The notes below the pieces were generated by a model. The model saw only the letters and a program-made list of their open reading frames with translations, was not told where the DNA came from and ran no database searches. DNA of 64,000 nucleotides. Origin: Acinetobacter piscicola (lineage in GTDB: Bacteria > Pseudomonadota > Gammaproteobacteria > Pseudomonadales > Moraxellaceae). Shown one piece after another: positions 50,093 through 60,578 of this stretch (its first letter is position 1; every line of letters starts with the position of its first letter). A program made the position numbers and the translations under genes. The stretch spans positions 3,534,001 through 3,598,000 of the forward strand of contig NZ_CP048659.1 of NCBI RefSeq assembly GCF_015218165.1. Reading direction: 5' to 3'.

Positions 50093-50183
50093 GGTGAAGT
50101 GTCCGAGTGGCTGAAGGAGCACGCCTGGAAAGTGTGTAAACGTTTATAGCGTTTCGAGGGTTCGAATCCCTCTTTCACCGCCA
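50093..50183 (+). tRNA. tRNA-Ser (anticodon GGA)
   Basis: A class II tRNA with a long variable arm (GTAAACGTTTATAGCGTTTC region), acceptor GGTGAAG paired to TTTCACC, anticodon loop CTGGAAA and encoded CCA at 50181-50183. Its 3' end is the integration site of the adjacent element. Confidence 0.96.
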
Positions 50184-50250: not shown

Positions 50251-50296
50251 AATGCCTACGCAATGACATGCAATCTATTGCAATCGTAGTATGTGT

Positions 50297-50430
50297 GGGG
50301 GTATAAATGGGGGTATATTTTCAATCCTTTATTTTTTATACCCCCAGAAAAATGAGTAAAAACCTCAAAAATGCCTAACTTTCGACAAAGTTGGGGGTAT
50401 AAATCCAAAATCACCGTTTTTTATACCCCC
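50297..50430. repeat. GGGGGTATA repeats, left cluster (probable integrase arm sites)
   Basis: GGGGGTATA occurs at 50297-50305, 50309-50317 and 50393-50401, and inverted (TATACCCCC) at 50337-50345 and 50422-50430. The first two are 12 bp apart. The last pair faces each other just before the integrase start at 50445, a good position for autoregulation. The same motif is at the other end of the element. Confidence 0.75.
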
Positions 50431-50444
50431 AAATAGGTGTAGTC

Positions 50445-51641
50445 ATGCTTACAGATGCAAAAATTAGAAAGATAAAGCCTTTAGAAAAGCGAACGAAGTA
50501 TACAGATGAGAAAGGTATGTACCTTGAAGTGCTACCTAGTGGCGGTATGTACTGGCGTTTAAAATTCCGACTGAATGGCAAAGAGAATGTTTTTAGTATT
50601 GGCACATATCCTGAAATCTCATTAGCCAATGCCCGAATAGAAAGAGATCAAGCAAAGTTACTCATTCAGCAAGGGATAAATCCAAATGAAACCAAGAAAA
50701 AGCAGCAACAAGAAATAAATCAAGATACCCTTTTTAAAACCCTTGCCCTTGAATGGATGCAAAACAGAAAAGAAATGATTAAGGAGGGTACTTATCTTCG
50801 TGACCTCACAACATTTGAAAAAGATATTTTTCCTTATCTAGGTAAAATGCCCATTGATAAAATTAAAGGAAAAAATGTTTTAGATTGCGCCCAAAGAATT
50901 GAGGCACGAGGCGCACAGGAAATGGCGAAGCGATCTATTCCATTGGTTGGGCGTGTTTTCCGTTTTGCTATTCGTAAGGGACTTATTGAGAATGACCCTA
51001 CTCCGCACTTGGGCGAAGCCTTAAAGCCGAGAAAAGTTAAAAATATGGCTAGACTTGATATTTCTGAGTTTCCGCCTTTCTTGCTTCGCATGGACAAGTA
51101 TCACGGTAGTTTCTTGGTTAAAACCGCTTTGCAGTTCATGACTTTAACTTTTGTAAGGACTGGCGAGTTGATCAACATGGAATGGAGCGAGATAGATTTT
51201 GAGGCGAAAGAATGGCGCATCCCTGCTCATAAAATGAAAATGGCATTACCTCATATTGTGCCGTTATCTACCCAAGCCATTGCACTATTAAAAGAACTCG
51301 AACCTTTAACAGGTCATAAGCAATTTGTATTTTATAACCACAGTACAGCGAAAACGATTAGTAATAACGCTTTGCTCAGTGCTATTAGAACGATGGGTTA
51401 TATGGGCAAAATGACAGGTCACGGATTCAGGGGACTTGCATCCACTACCCTACACGAACAAGGTTATATGCACGATGCTATCGAAGTGCAACTTGCACAT
51501 AAAACAGGTAACGCAGTATCACAGGCTTATAACCATGCTCAACACTTACAGTACAGAGCCAAGATGATGCAGGAATGGGCAAACTTCATTGATAGCCTTA
51601 GACATAATGTTGTCCCTTTTCCAAAGAATAAAAGGGCTTAA
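50445..51641 (+). CDS. P4-type tyrosine integrase
   Basis: A 398-residue integrase with the N-terminal DUF4102 arm-binding domain (MLTDAKIRKIKPLEKRTKYT, GGMYWRLKFR), a central SAM-like core-binding domain and the catalytic domain. The catalytic residues are R238 (TFVRTGEL), H326 and R329 (HGFR), H352 (LAHK) and Y362 (AYNHA). It belongs to the group that uses tRNA 3' ends as targets and lies 262 bp from tRNA-Ser. It appears intact. Confidence 0.95.
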   Translation: MLTDAKIRKIKPLEKRTKYTDEKGMYLEVLPSGGMYWRLKFRLNGKENVFSIGTYPEISLANARIERDQAKLLIQQGINPNETKKKQQQEINQDTLFKTLALEWMQNRKEMIKEGTYLRDLTTFEKDIFPYLGKMPIDKIKGKNVLDCAQRIEARGAQEMAKRSIPLVGRVFRFAIRKGLIENDPTPHLGEALKPRKVKNMARLDISEFPPFLLRMDKYHGSFLVKTALQFMTLTFVRTGELINMEWSEIDFEAKEWRIPAHKMKMALPHIVPLSTQAIALLKELEPLTGHKQFVFYNHSTAKTISNNALLSAIRTMGYMGKMTGHGFRGLASTTLHEQGYMHDAIEVQLAHKTGNAVSQAYNHAQHLQYRAKMMQEWANFIDSLRHNVVPFPKNKRA

Positions 51642-52925: not shown

Positions 52926-53213
52926 ATGTCATCACTTCACCAAGAACAGTTTTTACGCATCAAAGACCTTGCCAATTATCCTGAAAAGCAAGCGACCATT
53001 CACACTTATAAAAGTGGCATCAACAAAGGTAAAACCAAAAATATCAATGCTCGCCCTGCCTCAAAAGGCTTGATTGGTGTGTCTGATAAAACAATTTGGC
53101 AATGGGTTAAACGTGGCGAGTTCCCTGCCCCAATCAAACTAACCGACAGTGTAACGGTATGGCGTTTATCTGAGGTACAAGCATGGATGCAGTCCAAAGG
53201 ATTGGGGGCTTAA
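52926..53213 (+). CDS. AlpA-like excisionase/regulator
   Basis: A 95-residue winged-helix protein of the AlpA/MerR-like group: VSDKTIWQWVKRGEFPAPIK followed by WRLSEVQAWMQ. AlpA of P4-like elements activates the integrase and aids excision. The N-terminal 45 residues are extended relative to typical AlpA and include a basic stretch (KSGINKGKTKN). It starts the gene string that runs to the DUF927 gene. Confidence 0.85.
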   Translation: MSSLHQEQFLRIKDLANYPEKQATIHTYKSGINKGKTKNINARPASKGLIGVSDKTIWQWVKRGEFPAPIKLTDSVTVWRLSEVQAWMQSKGLGA

Positions 53214-54473: not shown

Positions 54474-54777
54474 TCAAAACAACACTACAAACACGCCTAA
54501 AACTTATAACGCTGGTGACATGCATGATTTAGCTTCAATGGCTGAGTGCGATATGGATTGGATGAGTACCGCCCTATCAGATGTGCAACTCAAAGTTAAA
54601 CAAATTAAAAAAGATTTAATGGCTCGCTATCCAAATGCTGAATACCATTTTTCAGACCTAGAGAAAGTCTTAGAAATGTTTGTATATTTAGCAGAAGATC
54701 GTTGCCGTTATCATGAAAAAGAAGCTGAAAAATTCAGAGAAGAATACGAAGCAAATAAAAAGGCGGTGACACTATGA
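54466..54777 (+). CDS. Unknown element protein, 103 aa
   Basis: An acidic, helical protein (SDVQLKVKQIKKDLMARYPN then LEMFVYLAEDRCRYHEKEAE) with a probable coiled coil in the last 60 residues. AGGAGG precedes the start. It overlaps the DUF927 gene by four bases, so it may be made in equal amounts with it. Function unknown. Confidence 0.7.
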   Translation: MPNQNNTTNTPKTYNAGDMHDLASMAECDMDWMSTALSDVQLKVKQIKKDLMARYPNAEYHFSDLEKVLEMFVYLAEDRCRYHEKEAEKFREEYEANKKAVTL

Positions 54778-57227
54778 ATATCACCACCTCCACCATCAAA
54801 CCCGATTCGATTCTAGCAAATTGTACGCTGCTTAATCCATCGGATGACACATATTTAAACCATCCCATCATTGAACGCTTTGGCAGTCCATCACAGCCGA
54901 TTTATGTTGATCAATGCAAGGTAGACATTAACGGCTTGACGTATGAGCAGCCTTTAATTCTACCTATCGTCAATGGACAGCTTAAGCTTGTGCAATGTGC
55001 TGTATTGCAAAATGAACAACGTATTCAAGTCATACCTGATGGTTTAGCAAAAGGCTTTGCTTGCTATGGTGAAATGCAGAAAGATAAACCTGTAATCATC
55101 ACCCATAACTTAGAGGCATTTTTTAAACTTGCCTCCAGTATTGCCATTGGTTTTGAACCACCATTACAGCCGTTTTCCGTTGTATTGGTGATATTGCCTA
55201 ACCTATGCAATATCAACCTAACAGAACTCAAAGCCTTTGATTTTGAGCAAATACAATATGTTATTCAGCAGTTATCTAAAGCAGGCTATCAACAGTTATA
55301 CATGCCTGTTAGACCTGAACAGATGCAGCTTGAGCCATTTAAACAGCTTGAGCAAAACACGGCTGGACGTTTACTAAATCAATATTTGAAATATGGCGAA
55401 AATGAGTTTTTCACTGAACTGATTAAAGAAAATGATGCTGCCGAAGCACAGGCATTTATTCATGAGGCAATCAGTCAATTACCTGAACTCGACCCATTAC
55501 CTAAAGGACATTTAGCCAAGCCATTTCGTTATGGTGATGGTGTATTTCATCTTTTAGATAGTGGCTTGTATTACATTGAACAAACAAAGGATGATGAGTA
55601 TAGACGCTATATTTCCAGTCCTATTCGAGTATTGGCACAAACAAGGGACACCACCAATAACGCATGGGGTCGCTTGCTTGAATGGTACGATGCAGACGGT
55701 GTAAAGCACACACAAGCCTTATCAATGGAACTATTCCAATCTGATGGTGTGGAACTCCGCAAGGCTTTGGCTTATCAAGGGGTCATCATTGCACCCGATG
55801 GCAAAGCAAGAAATTTGCTACAAAGTTATTTGATGAGCTACCCGACCCATACAAGGGCGTTATGTGTTGATCGTGTTGGATGGCATGACAATGTTTTTGT
55901 ATTGCCCAATGAGCAGATCGGACAGCATGAACAGGATGATTTAATTGTTTATCAAACCACACAAGGCATTGATAGCAACTATCAGAGTAAAGGCAGTTTA
56001 AAACAGTGGCAAAATAATATCTCTATCCCTTTGTCTACTCACTCTAAATTAGTCGTGGCATTGAGTTCGGCTTTTGCAGGGCAATTACTCACACCACTGG
56101 AACAGCAGACAGGTGCAGGCGTTCATTTCAAAGGACAATCATCCAAAGGCAAAACCACCGCTTTATATGTCGGCTGTAGTGTATGGGGTAAACCAAGCAA
56201 TTATTGTAAAACATGGAAATCAACAGGCAACGCTTTAGAACATACCGCATATATTCACAATGACGGATTCCTCGCCTTAGATGAGATTGGAGAGGTCGCC
56301 AACCCTAAAGAGTTGGGTAACATTGCCTACATGCTTGCCAATGGTAAAGGCAAAGCAAGGCTAACTAAGGAAATCAAAGCCAAGCCCTCTTATGCTTGGA
56401 AAGTCATTTTCCTATCTACAGGTGAAAAGAGCCTGAAAGAAATCATGCAAGAGAACGGACAAAAGACCAAACTAGGGCAAGAAATCCGTTTGATTGATAT
56501 TGATATAGATCAGTCTGAATATGGTTTATTTGATCAGATCGACTTTGCCGAAGATGGTGCAAAACAATCAAGGGTATTGGTTGAGCGTTCTAATCAGTTC
56601 TACGGCGTTGCAGGCATGGCATGGTTGAAATACCTCACCCATGACAAAGACACTGTCATGCAACAGGCTAAACAGCTATTAGAGCAATATCACCGTGAAT
56701 TAGTAGCAGAACACAATCAAGGTCATATTGTCCGTGTTGCAAATGCCTTTGCCTTGATTGCCGTTGCAGGTGAACTCGCTACACAGGCAGGAATTACAGC
56801 GTGGCAAACAGGTACAGCATTCAACGCCGTGAAAGACGTATTCAATGCTTGGGTCAATGACTTTGAATATGTCGGGGACTACCAAACCAAAGAATATATT
56901 TTGCATGTTAAGGCATTCTTTGAGGCAAATGAATCAAGTCGTTTTGAATCTATCACCCCTGACCCTGACCAAATCGAAAAGATCATTAACCGTGTGGGGT
57001 ACTGGAAGATCGAGAACGGCGAAAAATTATTTCTTGTGTTGCCTGAACAATTCAAAAATGAAGTGTGTAAAGGGCATGACAATAGAAAAGTGGCAAAGGC
57101 TTTATTGCTTGAGCAACTCTTAGAGCATGACACAGGCAAGACCAGTAAGACAGTTAGAATCCCATCAAAGAAAAATGCCGTTAAGGTTTATGCCGTTAAA
57201 GAAGCTATTTTTAGTTGGGAAGCCTAA
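54774..57227 (+). CDS. DUF927 helicase-like replication protein
   Basis: An 817-residue protein with a DUF927 domain in the middle (about 270-620). Walker A GQSSKGKTT lies at about 453-461, Walker B FLALDEIGEV at about 500. DUF927 proteins are superfamily 3-like or AAA+ helicases of phages and satellites. The N-terminal part around ILPIVNGQLKLVQCAVLQNE and VIITHNLEAFFKLA sits where other family members carry a Toprim primase, but the usual EGYATA motif is not present, so that domain looks degenerate. The last 100 residues may form a winged helix. The repeat-rich candidate origin begins nine bases after its stop. Confidence 0.85.
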   Translation: MNITTSTIKPDSILANCTLLNPSDDTYLNHPIIERFGSPSQPIYVDQCKVDINGLTYEQPLILPIVNGQLKLVQCAVLQNEQRIQVIPDGLAKGFACYGEMQKDKPVIITHNLEAFFKLASSIAIGFEPPLQPFSVVLVILPNLCNINLTELKAFDFEQIQYVIQQLSKAGYQQLYMPVRPEQMQLEPFKQLEQNTAGRLLNQYLKYGENEFFTELIKENDAAEAQAFIHEAISQLPELDPLPKGHLAKPFRYGDGVFHLLDSGLYYIEQTKDDEYRRYISSPIRVLAQTRDTTNNAWGRLLEWYDADGVKHTQALSMELFQSDGVELRKALAYQGVIIAPDGKARNLLQSYLMSYPTHTRALCVDRVGWHDNVFVLPNEQIGQHEQDDLIVYQTTQGIDSNYQSKGSLKQWQNNISIPLSTHSKLVVALSSAFAGQLLTPLEQQTGAGVHFKGQSSKGKTTALYVGCSVWGKPSNYCKTWKSTGNALEHTAYIHNDGFLALDEIGEVANPKELGNIAYMLANGKGKARLTKEIKAKPSYAWKVIFLSTGEKSLKEIMQENGQKTKLGQEIRLIDIDIDQSEYGLFDQIDFAEDGAKQSRVLVERSNQFYGVAGMAWLKYLTHDKDTVMQQAKQLLEQYHRELVAEHNQGHIVRVANAFALIAVAGELATQAGITAWQTGTAFNAVKDVFNAWVNDFEYVGDYQTKEYILHVKAFFEANESSRFESITPDPDQIEKIINRVGYWKIENGEKLFLVLPEQFKNEVCKGHDNRKVAKALLLEQLLEHDTGKTSKTVRIPSKKNAVKVYAVKEAIFSWEA

Positions 57228-57235
57228 AAAAGCGA

Positions 57236-57475
57236 GGTAACAGAGGTAACACAGGTAACAACCTTATAAATAAAGGCTTTGAGGGCGTTACCTATAGTAA
57301 AAATGGAGAGGTAACAACAGGTAACAAAGGTAACACGTTAAGAATTTATTAACACTAAGTTTAATTTTTTATCGCTTGTTACCCATGTTACCCCACGTTA
57401 CCTATTAAAAAATCAGTAGGTAACAGGCTGAAACCCTTTAATAGCAAGCATGTTACCTATGTTACCCATGTTGCC
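57236..57475. repeat. Dyad-symmetric GGTAAC array, putative replication origin
   Basis: Thirteen exact GGTAAC/GTTACC sites and one near match (GTTGCC). Forward: 57236, 57245, 57254, 57310, 57320, 57329, 57419. Reverse: 57287, 57378, 57387, 57397, 57452, 57461, 57470 (near match). The layout is three, one, three in one half and its mirror image in the other; mirrored sites agree to within 1 bp across the whole 240 bp. Triplet spacing is 9-10 bp. The DNA between sites is also partly conserved between the halves. The centre (near 57356) is A+T-rich. It lies between a helicase gene and ssb. Confidence 0.82.
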
Positions 57476-57519: not shown

Positions 57520-57846
57520 ATGCCAAATGTGAACAAAGTTATTTTAATGGGCGTTTTAGGTCGTGACCCTGAAACAAAGAATTTCCCCAATGGTGGCAGT
57601 ATTACCAATTTCAGCATAGCAACGACTGAGCAATGGAAAGACAAAACCACTGGAGAACGTAAAGAACACACCGAATGGCATCGAATCAGTACCAATAACC
57701 GATTGGCAGAGATTGCAGGCAAGTACCTTAAAAAAGGCAGTAAGGTTTATATTGAGGGCAGTTTAAGGACACGGAAATGGAAAGATCAAAGCGGTGTAGA
57801 TCGGGAGATAGTCGAAGTTCGGGCGGATGTATTACAGTTGCTTTGA
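57520..57846 (+). CDS. ssb: Single-stranded DNA-binding protein
   Basis: A 108-residue SSB with the OB-fold core only: [55 protein letters not shown]. It lacks the acidic C-terminal tip that host SSB uses to bind partners, so it probably serves only the element. It follows the putative origin by 44 bp and has its own terminator. Confidence 0.93.
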
Positions 57847-58325: not shown

Positions 58326-59182
58326 GGGTGTGTTGACATTTACAGCCGATAAATTGAGCTAAAGAGGCAACCATATAAATATACAAGCTAAAGCAACAGC
58401 GCTTTGATAGTTACGTTTTAGCTTATCGTATCTTGTGGCAATTCCTCTAAATTGTTTTAATCTACAAAATGCATTTTCAACTAAATGTCTGATTTTATAC
58501 ATATACCAGTCCATATCATCATTGCTAGATTTGGCATTTGATCTTCGAGGAATGTTTGCTTTCGTATTACTTTCTCTAATTTTCTTTCTGAAACTTTCTG
58601 AATCATAGCCTTTATCTGCACATAGCATTTCTGACTCTGTTAAATCTAATTTTGATACAAGATCAGGTGCAACCTTAATATCATGTGAAGTTCCATCTGA
58701 AATAATAAATTCAATAGGATTACCATTTGAATCGATTGCTAAATGTATTTTTGAACTATTACCACCAATACTTTTGGAAATACTTTGATTCTTAATACCA
58801 GCTGAATGTTGATGCGCTCGTACATGGCTCCCATCGATAAAAATCCACTCTTTATCAGCATGCTGGCTGAATAATTTAAAAATATTCATAAACTTACTAT
58901 TTTTAGACCATCGATTATATTTCTTAAAAATAGAATTTGATTTACCAAACTCTTGAGGTAAATCACGCCAAGGACAGCCTGTTCTAATTCGAAATAAAAT
59001 CGCTTCAATAAAATTCCGTAAATTTAATTTGAGATAAATATTAAAGTGACGGAAAATAGCAAGTAACTTGGACCAGTGTTGATCATTTAGCATTGTTCGA
59101 GGCATAGCGAGTGTAAAATTGGGTTTGGCGATTTAATTTTACTATCTCGCTATTTTTTTAATCAACAAATGTCAACAGACCC
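58326..59182 (-). mobile_element. IS5-family (IS427-type) insertion sequence
   Basis: 857 bp with ends GGGTGTGTTGACATTT and AAATGTCAACAGACCC (inverted repeats with one mismatch). The flanking TA at 58324-58325 and 59183-59184 is the target duplication, within TTAA, as usual for this group. Confidence 0.88.
58359..59105 (-). CDS. IS5-family transposase
   Basis: A 248-residue DDE transposase in a single frame. N-terminal DUF4096 part (LRNFIEAILFRIRTGCPWRD), catalytic IFIDGSHVRAHQ, CADKGYDSE and a late glutamate in LVENAFCRLKQFRGIATRYDK. Many members of this group use a frameshift; here the frame is continuous and looks complete. Confidence 0.9.
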   Translation of the reverse strand: MPRTMLNDQHWSKLLAIFRHFNIYLKLNLRNFIEAILFRIRTGCPWRDLPQEFGKSNSIFKKYNRWSKNSKFMNIFKLFSQHADKEWIFIDGSHVRAHQHSAGIKNQSISKSIGGNSSKIHLAIDSNGNPIEFIISDGTSHDIKVAPDLVSKLDLTESEMLCADKGYDSESFRKKIRESNTKANIPRRSNAKSSNDDMDWYMYKIRHLVENAFCRLKQFRGIATRYDKLKRNYQSAVALACIFIWLPL

Positions 59183-59920: not shown

Positions 59921-60502
59921 ATGTTTAAGCAATCAAAAATACAGGTTGAGAGCCTAAGAGCAATGGATAGCCGAATAATGCAGAAACAAGGCATCTTTAA
60001 AAATGGTACAGGCTCATATTACTGGAAAGATGCAAACACTAACGAGGTGCGAGCTAATATAGGTTACAGCTATCAAGCTCAACAATTAACGCTTTCTTAT
60101 CGGTGTGGCGGTCAGTCTTATGACTATATGATTTGTATAGATCAGACAGCTTGTCACTACGGCGGTACACGGTCATGGTTTATATGTCCATCCTCACAAT
60201 GTAGAAAGCGAGTTGCCAAACTGTATTTATCAAAAAGTGGGTATTTCACATGCAGACATTGTAATAATGCTAACTATGCCATTCAGCAAATGAGCGAAAA
60301 AGATAAGCCACGTTATCACATGCACAAAATGAGGGATAAGTTAGGTTGGAGCTATAACCATGTGCCATTTATTAAAAGAATAAGCAAACCTTTAAATATG
60401 CACCACAAGACATTTAAGGCTATGGTTGCCAAGCATGATGAATATGAAAGGCAATTTTTAGTAAACTTTCAAGCATTCATAGATAAGTTTGAAAATATGT
60501 GA
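59921..60502 (+). CDS. Zinc-ribbon protein of phage/satellite type
   Basis: A 193-residue protein with two cysteine pairs: FICPSSQCRKRVAKLYL at about 88-104 and YFTCRHCNNANYA about 15 residues later. This arrangement is common in small unknown proteins of prophages and satellites. In the first pair the spacing is CPSSQC, longer than the usual CxxC. The N-terminal 80 residues look beta-rich. The helical C-terminus is basic. A nucleic-acid role is likely, not proven. Confidence 0.72.
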   Translation: MFKQSKIQVESLRAMDSRIMQKQGIFKNGTGSYYWKDANTNEVRANIGYSYQAQQLTLSYRCGGQSYDYMICIDQTACHYGGTRSWFICPSSQCRKRVAKLYLSKSGYFTCRHCNNANYAIQQMSEKDKPRYHMHKMRDKLGWSYNHVPFIKRISKPLNMHHKTFKAMVAKHDEYERQFLVNFQAFIDKFENM

Positions 60503-60545
60503 AAGAGGCGTTTAACATGAAAACTATGGGGTACTTTTGCGTACT

Positions 60546-60578
60546 GGGGGTATAAATGGGGGTATAAATGGGGGTATA
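60546..60578. repeat. GGGGGTATA repeats, right cluster
   Basis: Three tandem copies at 60546, 60558 and 60570, each 12 bp apart, on the same strand as the 12-bp pair at the left end. They lie 60-90 bp inside the right attachment site. Confidence 0.78.

Follow-up and report, generated by a model that had tools for sequence, protein, structure and literature searches.

The subject of this analysis is an array of short repeats in an integrative element of Acinetobacter piscicola, located in the 64,000-nucleotide stretch of contig NZ_CP048659.1 between positions 3,534,001 and 3,598,000 (the window; coordinates are those of the window unless another locus is named). The element comprises roughly 10 kb, with approximate ends, and contains genes for a tyrosine integrase, an AlpA-like regulator, an HTH_39 protein, a Bro-N protein and a DUF927 helicase, followed by the array and by ssb. 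Judging from sequence comparisons, we consider it very probable that the array is a replication origin of the kind described for Staphylococcus aureus pathogenicity islands (SaPI) and phage-inducible chromosomal islands (PICI), with the DUF927 helicase as its initiator. The features on which the argument relies are the following, > and < giving the two orientations of the repeated word:

54774..57227, plus strand: DUF927 helicase, 817 amino acids, homologue of SaPIbov1 Rep and of Cch from the staphylococcal cassette chromosome mec (SCCmec), proposed origin-binding initiator
56880..57224, plus strand: predicted C-terminal winged-helix domain of the helicase, about residues 703-817 (AlphaFold2 (AF2) models)
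57236..57334, plus strand: left half-array, > 57236, > 57245, > 57254, < 57287, > 57310, > 57320, > 57329
57335..57377, no strand: AT-rich centre, candidate melting site, 79% AT
57378..57475, minus strand: right half-array, < 57378, < 57387, < 57397, > 57419, < 57452, < 57461, < 57470 (GTTGCC)
57520..57846, plus strand: ssb of the element, 108 amino acids (Pfam SSB, 1.4e-35)

The original prediction described seven mirrored pairs made up of 13 exact sites and one deviating site, and the site coordinates bear this out: 13 exact GGTAAC/GTTACC sites occupy 57236-57466 and the 14th, GTTGCC, lies at 57470-57475, so that the whole array covers 57236-57475. As stated there, the pair midpoints worked out from these coordinates fall at 57356 for the three inner pairs and at 57355.5 for the four outer pairs. 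The centre-to-centre gaps are 9,9,32,24,10,9 in the left half, 48 across the centre, and 9,10,23,32,9,9 in the right half. In 400 random arrays matched for size, seven pairs mirrored within 3 bp never arose, and first-order Markov resampling of the window (300 rounds) placed no more than 3 sites in 240 bp, where the real sequence has 13. The location between the helicase gene and ssb is likewise as predicted, 8 bases from the helicase stop codon and 44 from the ssb start, which places the array immediately 3' of the putative initiator gene. Seven sites on each side thus surround a centre of 79% AT, compared with 62% and 59% in the arms.

The helicase itself links this layout to the SaPI origins. 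In a profile search against solved structures (E 0.01) it matched SaPIbov1 Rep (8tch, 4.5e-55) and SCCmec Cch (5dgk, 9.9e-32), and is therefore homologous to a SaPI Rep protein. The same two structures lead the structural comparison of its AF2 model (pLDDT 84.6, pTM 0.58), with the match extending to the C-terminus. When the C-terminal domain is modelled separately (pLDDT 85.8, pTM 0.81), the closest folds are TcpK, the C-terminus of SaPIbov1 Rep, and Cch; the origin-binding structure of the P4 alpha protein (1ka8) is absent among the matches listed for this domain model. TcpK is reported to insert a beta-wing into the major groove, where it contacts tandem GGAACTTTA boxes (PMC6137059), and the C-terminal domain of SaPI Rep is described as recognising the origin, with Rep said to bind as two hexamers (PMC7581432). 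The position of the array at the 3' end of the gene for a SaPIbov1 Rep homologue supports the original proposal of a replication origin next to the helicase.

That proposal was made to depend on conservation of the array in relatives with the same helicase, and a repeated-word array is present at the helicase 3' end in all 18 distinct loci compared, the window included (L001 shows the left half only). Identity across the DUF927 and C-terminal portions of the helicase is 58% or more in these loci; the survey of the same genus covered 175 genomes, of which 51 had a match. L001, L002 and L003 were counted once with their doubles L017, L016 and L024, which agree with them in identity, matched range and top words, and the window (L009) was likewise counted once, while L004, L005, L011 and L012, which match the N-terminal part only, stand outside the count. 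A class-wide draw of 274 genomes yielded 24 with a helicase match, including the window's own. Other genera contributed 23 loci, and in 15 of these a high-scoring array of other words follows within about 1.5 kb downstream (L214-L218, being further pieces or second matches of counted genomes, are outside the 23). None of the in-gene controls from the 22 aligned loci reached the threshold, the highest score being 13.7 against 18. Helicase reading frames running into the array were seen in L187 (8600-8850), where the 3' part of the frame contains the array, and in the proteins P0025, P0080 and P0104; in such cases the iterons would be translated as Gly-Asn or as Val-Thr/Val-Ala repeats.

What is conserved is not the word. 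Depending on the element, the arrays of the 18-locus set consist of GGTAACA, GGCAACA, GGTTACA or TGTGACA, and more distant Acinetobacter loci have GTGGACA, TGGGACG, TGGGGCA, and TGTGACC or TGTGACG. This variation between relatives led us to reject GGTAAC as a motif fixed across the element family. Within one array, in turn, nearly all sites carry one variant: the third position reads 82 T, 3 C, 1 G and 1 A in seven GGTAACA arrays, and 63 C, 2 T and 1 A in six GGCAACA arrays. The odd site of the window, GTTGCC, is the GGCAACA variant, the word carried by L006 and L008, to which the window is most closely related.

The choice between GGTAACA and GGCAACA in Acinetobacter tracks four helicase residues located, according to the structural model, at the wing of the C-terminal domain (predicted strands 792-794 and 803-809). 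In the window the corresponding codons are:

57144..57146, plus strand: codon 791, S in the window, T in all six compared GGCAACA elements
57171..57176, plus strand: codons 800-801, KN in the window, S or T followed by K or Q in the six GGCAACA elements
57183..57185, plus strand: codon 804, K in the window, R in the six GGCAACA elements, in predicted wing strand 803-809

In an alignment of seven GGTAACA and six GGCAACA rows, five of 794 columns tell the two words apart, namely 174 (with letters in 11 rows only), 791, 800, 801 and 804. Hence 4 of 37 columns separate the words in residues 780-817 compared with 1 of 757 elsewhere (Fisher p 1.9e-5, columns not being independent). Among all 1716 labellings, only the true one gives four separating columns in 780-817, a count that ignores kinship. 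In a tree of the helicase minus its C-terminus the labels require five (GGTAACA) or four (GGCAACA) changes, at least three of them forced by well-supported branches, and the window nests with the GGCAACA elements L006 and L008 (the latter only 30% filled). We rejected hitchhiking as a full account of the association because silent third positions do not separate the words, neither at any of 13 variable sites in codons 780-817 nor at any of 261 elsewhere. The comparison was made without L042 (a near-copy of L014), L043, L051, L088 and L065, and likewise without L041, the end of which appears masked. L043 and L065 fit the K/R rule at position 804, and so do two read-through proteins from outside the test whose repeats were read by eye (P0025, R with GTTGCC; P0104, K with GTTACC).

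A second conserved property is the strand order of the sites. Ahead of the centre, Acinetobacter elements repeatedly show the order >>> < >>(>), in many cases with its mirror image after it, and the order is also found in other DUF927 elements: the enterobacterial L051, L088 and L178, phiAH14b of Pseudomonas, a Legionella plasmid and the staphylococcal PT1028. The Legionella case is plasmid III of L. fallonii, a circular molecule of 14.6 kb on which a DUF927 gene is followed by a TGGGACA array; it also carries an integrase, its incomplete annotation table labels no other gene as an initiator, and PLSDB assigns it to a replicon cluster. At most, this plasmid hints that the helicase gene and array can drive autonomous replication. 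Half-array sizes were counted in 29 arrays with complete site strings (28 of the 39 evaluated for mirror symmetry, together with L192 after removal of one stray distant site), the count being made without L001, L014, L029, L040, L043, L045, L065, L174, L177, L179 and P4 ori1. The 58 halves include 31 with six sites, 14 with five, 10 with seven, two with eight and one with three.

In relatives whose helicase is 50% identical the array is divided. All seven such loci checked have < > <<< about 1 kb downstream of the helicase gene. L186, L189 and L190, the three wider stretches that reach the integrase (the L188 stretch is shorter), have in addition a second array of the form >>> < >, with scattered further sites, close to the integrase and some 7 kb from the first; in the second array of L190 two of the three first sites are exact. 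In the same three loci a further triplet or pair of sites occurs about 180 bp past the downstream array. Two arrays about 7 kb apart resemble the split of the P4 origin, here within the DUF927 family as far as the sequences indicate. The suggestion that the two cis regions of P4 have merged at this locus is thus partly sustained, in that relatives with about 50% identity have two arrays and P4 ori1 has the strand order of a half-array; the window has one fused array and not two separate cis regions of the ori1 and crr type.

We infer from these data how the origin might operate. The DUF927 helicase made from the upstream gene would bind each GGTAACA site through its C-terminal winged helix, with contacts to the bases made mostly by the wing. 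Each half-array, modally of six sites in relatives and of seven in the window, would seat one helicase hexamer, and because of the mirror layout a pair of hexamers would face each other across the AT-rich centre, head to head. Melting of the centre would then launch two outward forks, giving a bidirectional start and enabling the element to replicate autonomously. A model in which one half-array corresponds to one hexamer is made concrete by the retention of the strand order while the word changes.

A wider generalisation can be formulated, to which we assign slightly less than an even chance. It holds that DUF927 Rep proteins and the D5 helicases of P4 and PICI load themselves on one common scaffold, >>> < >>(>), which counts out one hexamer, and that only the geometry is fixed, with the word drifting at all sites in concert and along with the wing. 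A single scaffold (P4 ori1), two split scaffolds and two mirror-fused scaffolds would then be variants of one machine, and in Acinetobacter the wing code would read K804/N801 for GGTAACA, and R804 with K or Q at 801 for GGCAACA. Because the word would drift with the wing, closely related elements would acquire private origins. To our knowledge it is not yet settled how, in these elements, a hexameric helicase gets onto duplex DNA by itself, with no dedicated loader. The elements compared here form a natural series of similar helicases with different words and few differing wing residues, and could serve as a system for studying the joint change of an initiator and a dozen dispersed sites. The iterons of geminiviruses have prompted the same question (PMC12548392).

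Several results weigh against the origin interpretation or against parts of it. The helicase stands beside each array by construction, since the loci were fetched with the helicase. Eight of the 23 other-genus loci have no qualifying downstream array (seven scored below the threshold and one was not aligned). The threshold was also attained upstream of the gene, in 3 of 22 loci (L195, L197 and L201). Exact mirror symmetry is less widespread than the strand order: with a 3-bp tolerance, only 19 of 39 arrays have a mirror value that no more than 20 of 400 random arrays attain, and 20 of 39 do not. Some of the latter contain few sites, and the distant Acinetobacter group has different gap lengths in its two halves. 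The halves of the window contain seven sites each and not the modal six. As for the wing residues, the 13 rows are related and so do not count as 13 independent cases. K804/R804 is no general code either, since R804 is present in L051 and L088, which are enterobacterial elements of the GGTAACA type. Finally, a scan of viral_contigs for three GGYAACA sites at a 9-bp period gave at least 120 stretches, and among those listed only 23 of 120 have a relative of the DUF927 protein, P4 alpha or the PT1028 protein (tblastn). Ten proteins near the other 97 stretches were scanned: five are of VapE, DUF5906/RepB-primase or NrS-1-polymerase types, two are terminases, and the remaining three are an SNF2 helicase, a protein without family and a collagen-like protein, whose gene can mimic the pattern because of its Gly-Asn repeats.

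Some observations concern the same sets of loci. The clusters upstream of the DUF927 gene in L195, L197 and L201 are of repeated words, the same as downstream in L195 and L197, and are possibly further split origins. GGYAACA arrays with a 9-bp period stand beside VapE, DUF5906/RepB-primase and NrS-1 polymerase-like proteins in L068, L076, L094, L140 and L164, and the sequences suggest that the same word serves several helicase families. Scans of viral_contigs with P0037 and P0099 produced no further contigs.

The array could also be an operator, at which the AlpA-like regulator, the HTH_39 protein, the Bro-N protein or the helicase binds and controls ssb and the genes downstream. Repressor arrays can look alike, the order helicase, array, ssb would permit such control, and the sole terminator-like site in the segment 56900-57900 lies after ssb. 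These points are countered by the promoter scan of the same segment, which gave no site on the plus strand, one on the minus strand (2.2 expected) and nothing within the array, and by the gene content of the relatives: a relative of ssb is found near the array in nine of 18 helicase-fetched sequences and is missing in the other nine (L010 and L176 being the same place), and L001 and L002 have no ssb, HTH_39, Bro-N or AlpA relative within 6 kb on both sides. Absence of the regulators elsewhere says little, because most other loci reach only about 1.5 kb. With the site sequence tracking residues of the helicase wing, an operator appears improbable.

The resemblance of the C-terminal domain to TcpK, a protein that binds repeats at an origin of transfer (oriT), raises the alternative that the array is such an origin or a relaxosome site, which we consider still less probable than an operator. 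Least credible of all, to the point that we give it almost no weight, is that the palindrome is a by-product of inverted duplication kept by chance or as a hairpin or terminator. With the sites held fixed, only 6 of 2000 spacer shuffles matched the likeness between the spacers of the two halves, a likeness compatible with the original suggestion of an old inverted duplication and likewise with a constraint shared by both halves. The retention of the strand order in relatives in which both word and spacers change argues against a mere by-product, as do the lack of an Rfam match for the array and of any terminator-like site within it. A replication origin served by the DUF927 helicase thus remains the preferred interpretation.

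Further annotated features lie upstream of the helicase gene:

50093-50183: tRNA-Ser
50445..51641, plus strand: the element's tyrosine integrase, separated from tRNA-Ser by about 260 bp
52926..53213, plus strand: AlpA-like regulator of the element (Pfam PF05930, 8.1e-08)

A 29-bp repeat containing GGGGGTATA words occurs near both element ends, at 50289-50317 and 60538-60578, and is a candidate for attachment-site or integrase arm repeats. Between ssb and an open reading frame (ORF) at 59921 lies a transposase-like ORF (58359-59105, minus strand), which we take to be IS5-like. The same genome has a second copy of the helicase (99%), array and ssb (98%) at G000:C1:2448007-2450457 (L176, identical with L010), in an element that is otherwise mosaic relative to that of the window. 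In L023 the Bro-N, orf181 and ssb products are 74-84% identical to those of the window and the helicase 59%, with a TGTGACA array whose spacing is of the distant type, which looks like exchange of a replicon module as far as sequence can tell. The DUF3987-type proteins of L004, L005, L011 and L012 resemble the window helicase in its first ~238 residues; in L004, the only one on which Pfam was run, the helicase part differs from that of the window, and an AATCGCA array with exact sites in the order << > << >> >> lies directly downstream of the gene (L004:8110-8320). The window's own genome contains two N-terminal matches of this kind.

The original prediction knew of no description of this arrangement. 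We rejected its novelty because the organisation has been published for SaPI and PICI origins, which are described as located immediately 3' of rep and as always having two iteron sets around an AT-rich region (PMC6092414). Literature on the P4 origin, DUF927 iterons, SaPI and PICI origins, PICI-like elements (PLE) and Acinetobacter satellites contained nothing closer among the matches listed. A strand order shared across helicase families and covariation of wing and word had no description among the matches listed, which is no proof of absence.

Comparison with individual systems places the array more precisely. The P4 satellite is similar in its ori1, a set of six type 1 repeats whose 8-mer GGTGAACA is close to GGTAACA and whose order is >>> < >>, and in the position of crr directly downstream of alpha. 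It differs in having two separate loci and in its gaps (10,11,22,43,10 compared with 9,9,32,24,10,9), and the window has GGTAACA instead of the type 1 iteron and DUF927 instead of a Zn-ribbon/toprim/D5 initiator: Pfam finds DUF927 only in the window helicase, and Zn_Ribbon_Prim, Toprim, D5_N and Pox_D5 in P4 alpha. In the staphylococcal element PT1028, which carries a DUF927 gene, the sites read AGTTCCC, stand as >>> < >> and are spaced by gaps of 9,11,24,43,9. The gaps of P4 ori1 (L049 9310-9413) and PT1028 (L174 4280-4590) nearly coincide, and their helicases belong to different Pfam families.

In the PLE of V. cholerae, origin and initiator DNA-binding domain are reported to covary and to be swapped as a module (PMC8263062), which is reminiscent of the wing and word relationship. 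There, however, the initiator is a RepA_N protein and not a predicted helicase (PMC7145576), and the iterons are described as semi-palindromic and about 30 bp long (PMC8263062); a Pfam scan of ten proteins of the window element gave no RepA_N. Among the SCCmec proteins, Cch has DUF927 and is the best structural match together with SaPIbov1 Rep. The C-terminal domain of Cch2 binds repeats downstream of its own gene, while Cch2 is a helicase of a different family and its repeats comprise just three iterons.

A Gram-negative PICI for comparison is an E. coli CFT073 element taken to be EcCICFT073 by position and gene content, its record being unlabelled. Its order is integrase, helicase, array, a single small ORF, then ssb, and two iteron sets lie around AT-rich DNA. 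Autonomous replication is reported for EcCICFT073: its rep-ori segment supports maintenance of a plasmid, which is reduced when ori is missing and lost when rep is missing (PMC6092414). Its helicase is of the D5_N/Pox_D5 type and not DUF927, the word is GGTAGA(CA), and the pairs lie outside and the triplets inside; its mirror statistic is attained by 21 out of 400 arrays drawn at random. With SaPIbov1 the array shares a homologous Rep helicase, an origin directly downstream and several short iterons; the host phylum and the iteron word are different, and identity in the structural alignment is about 15%. By its sequence, then, the array is very probably a new Acinetobacter member of the SaPI and PICI kind of origins.
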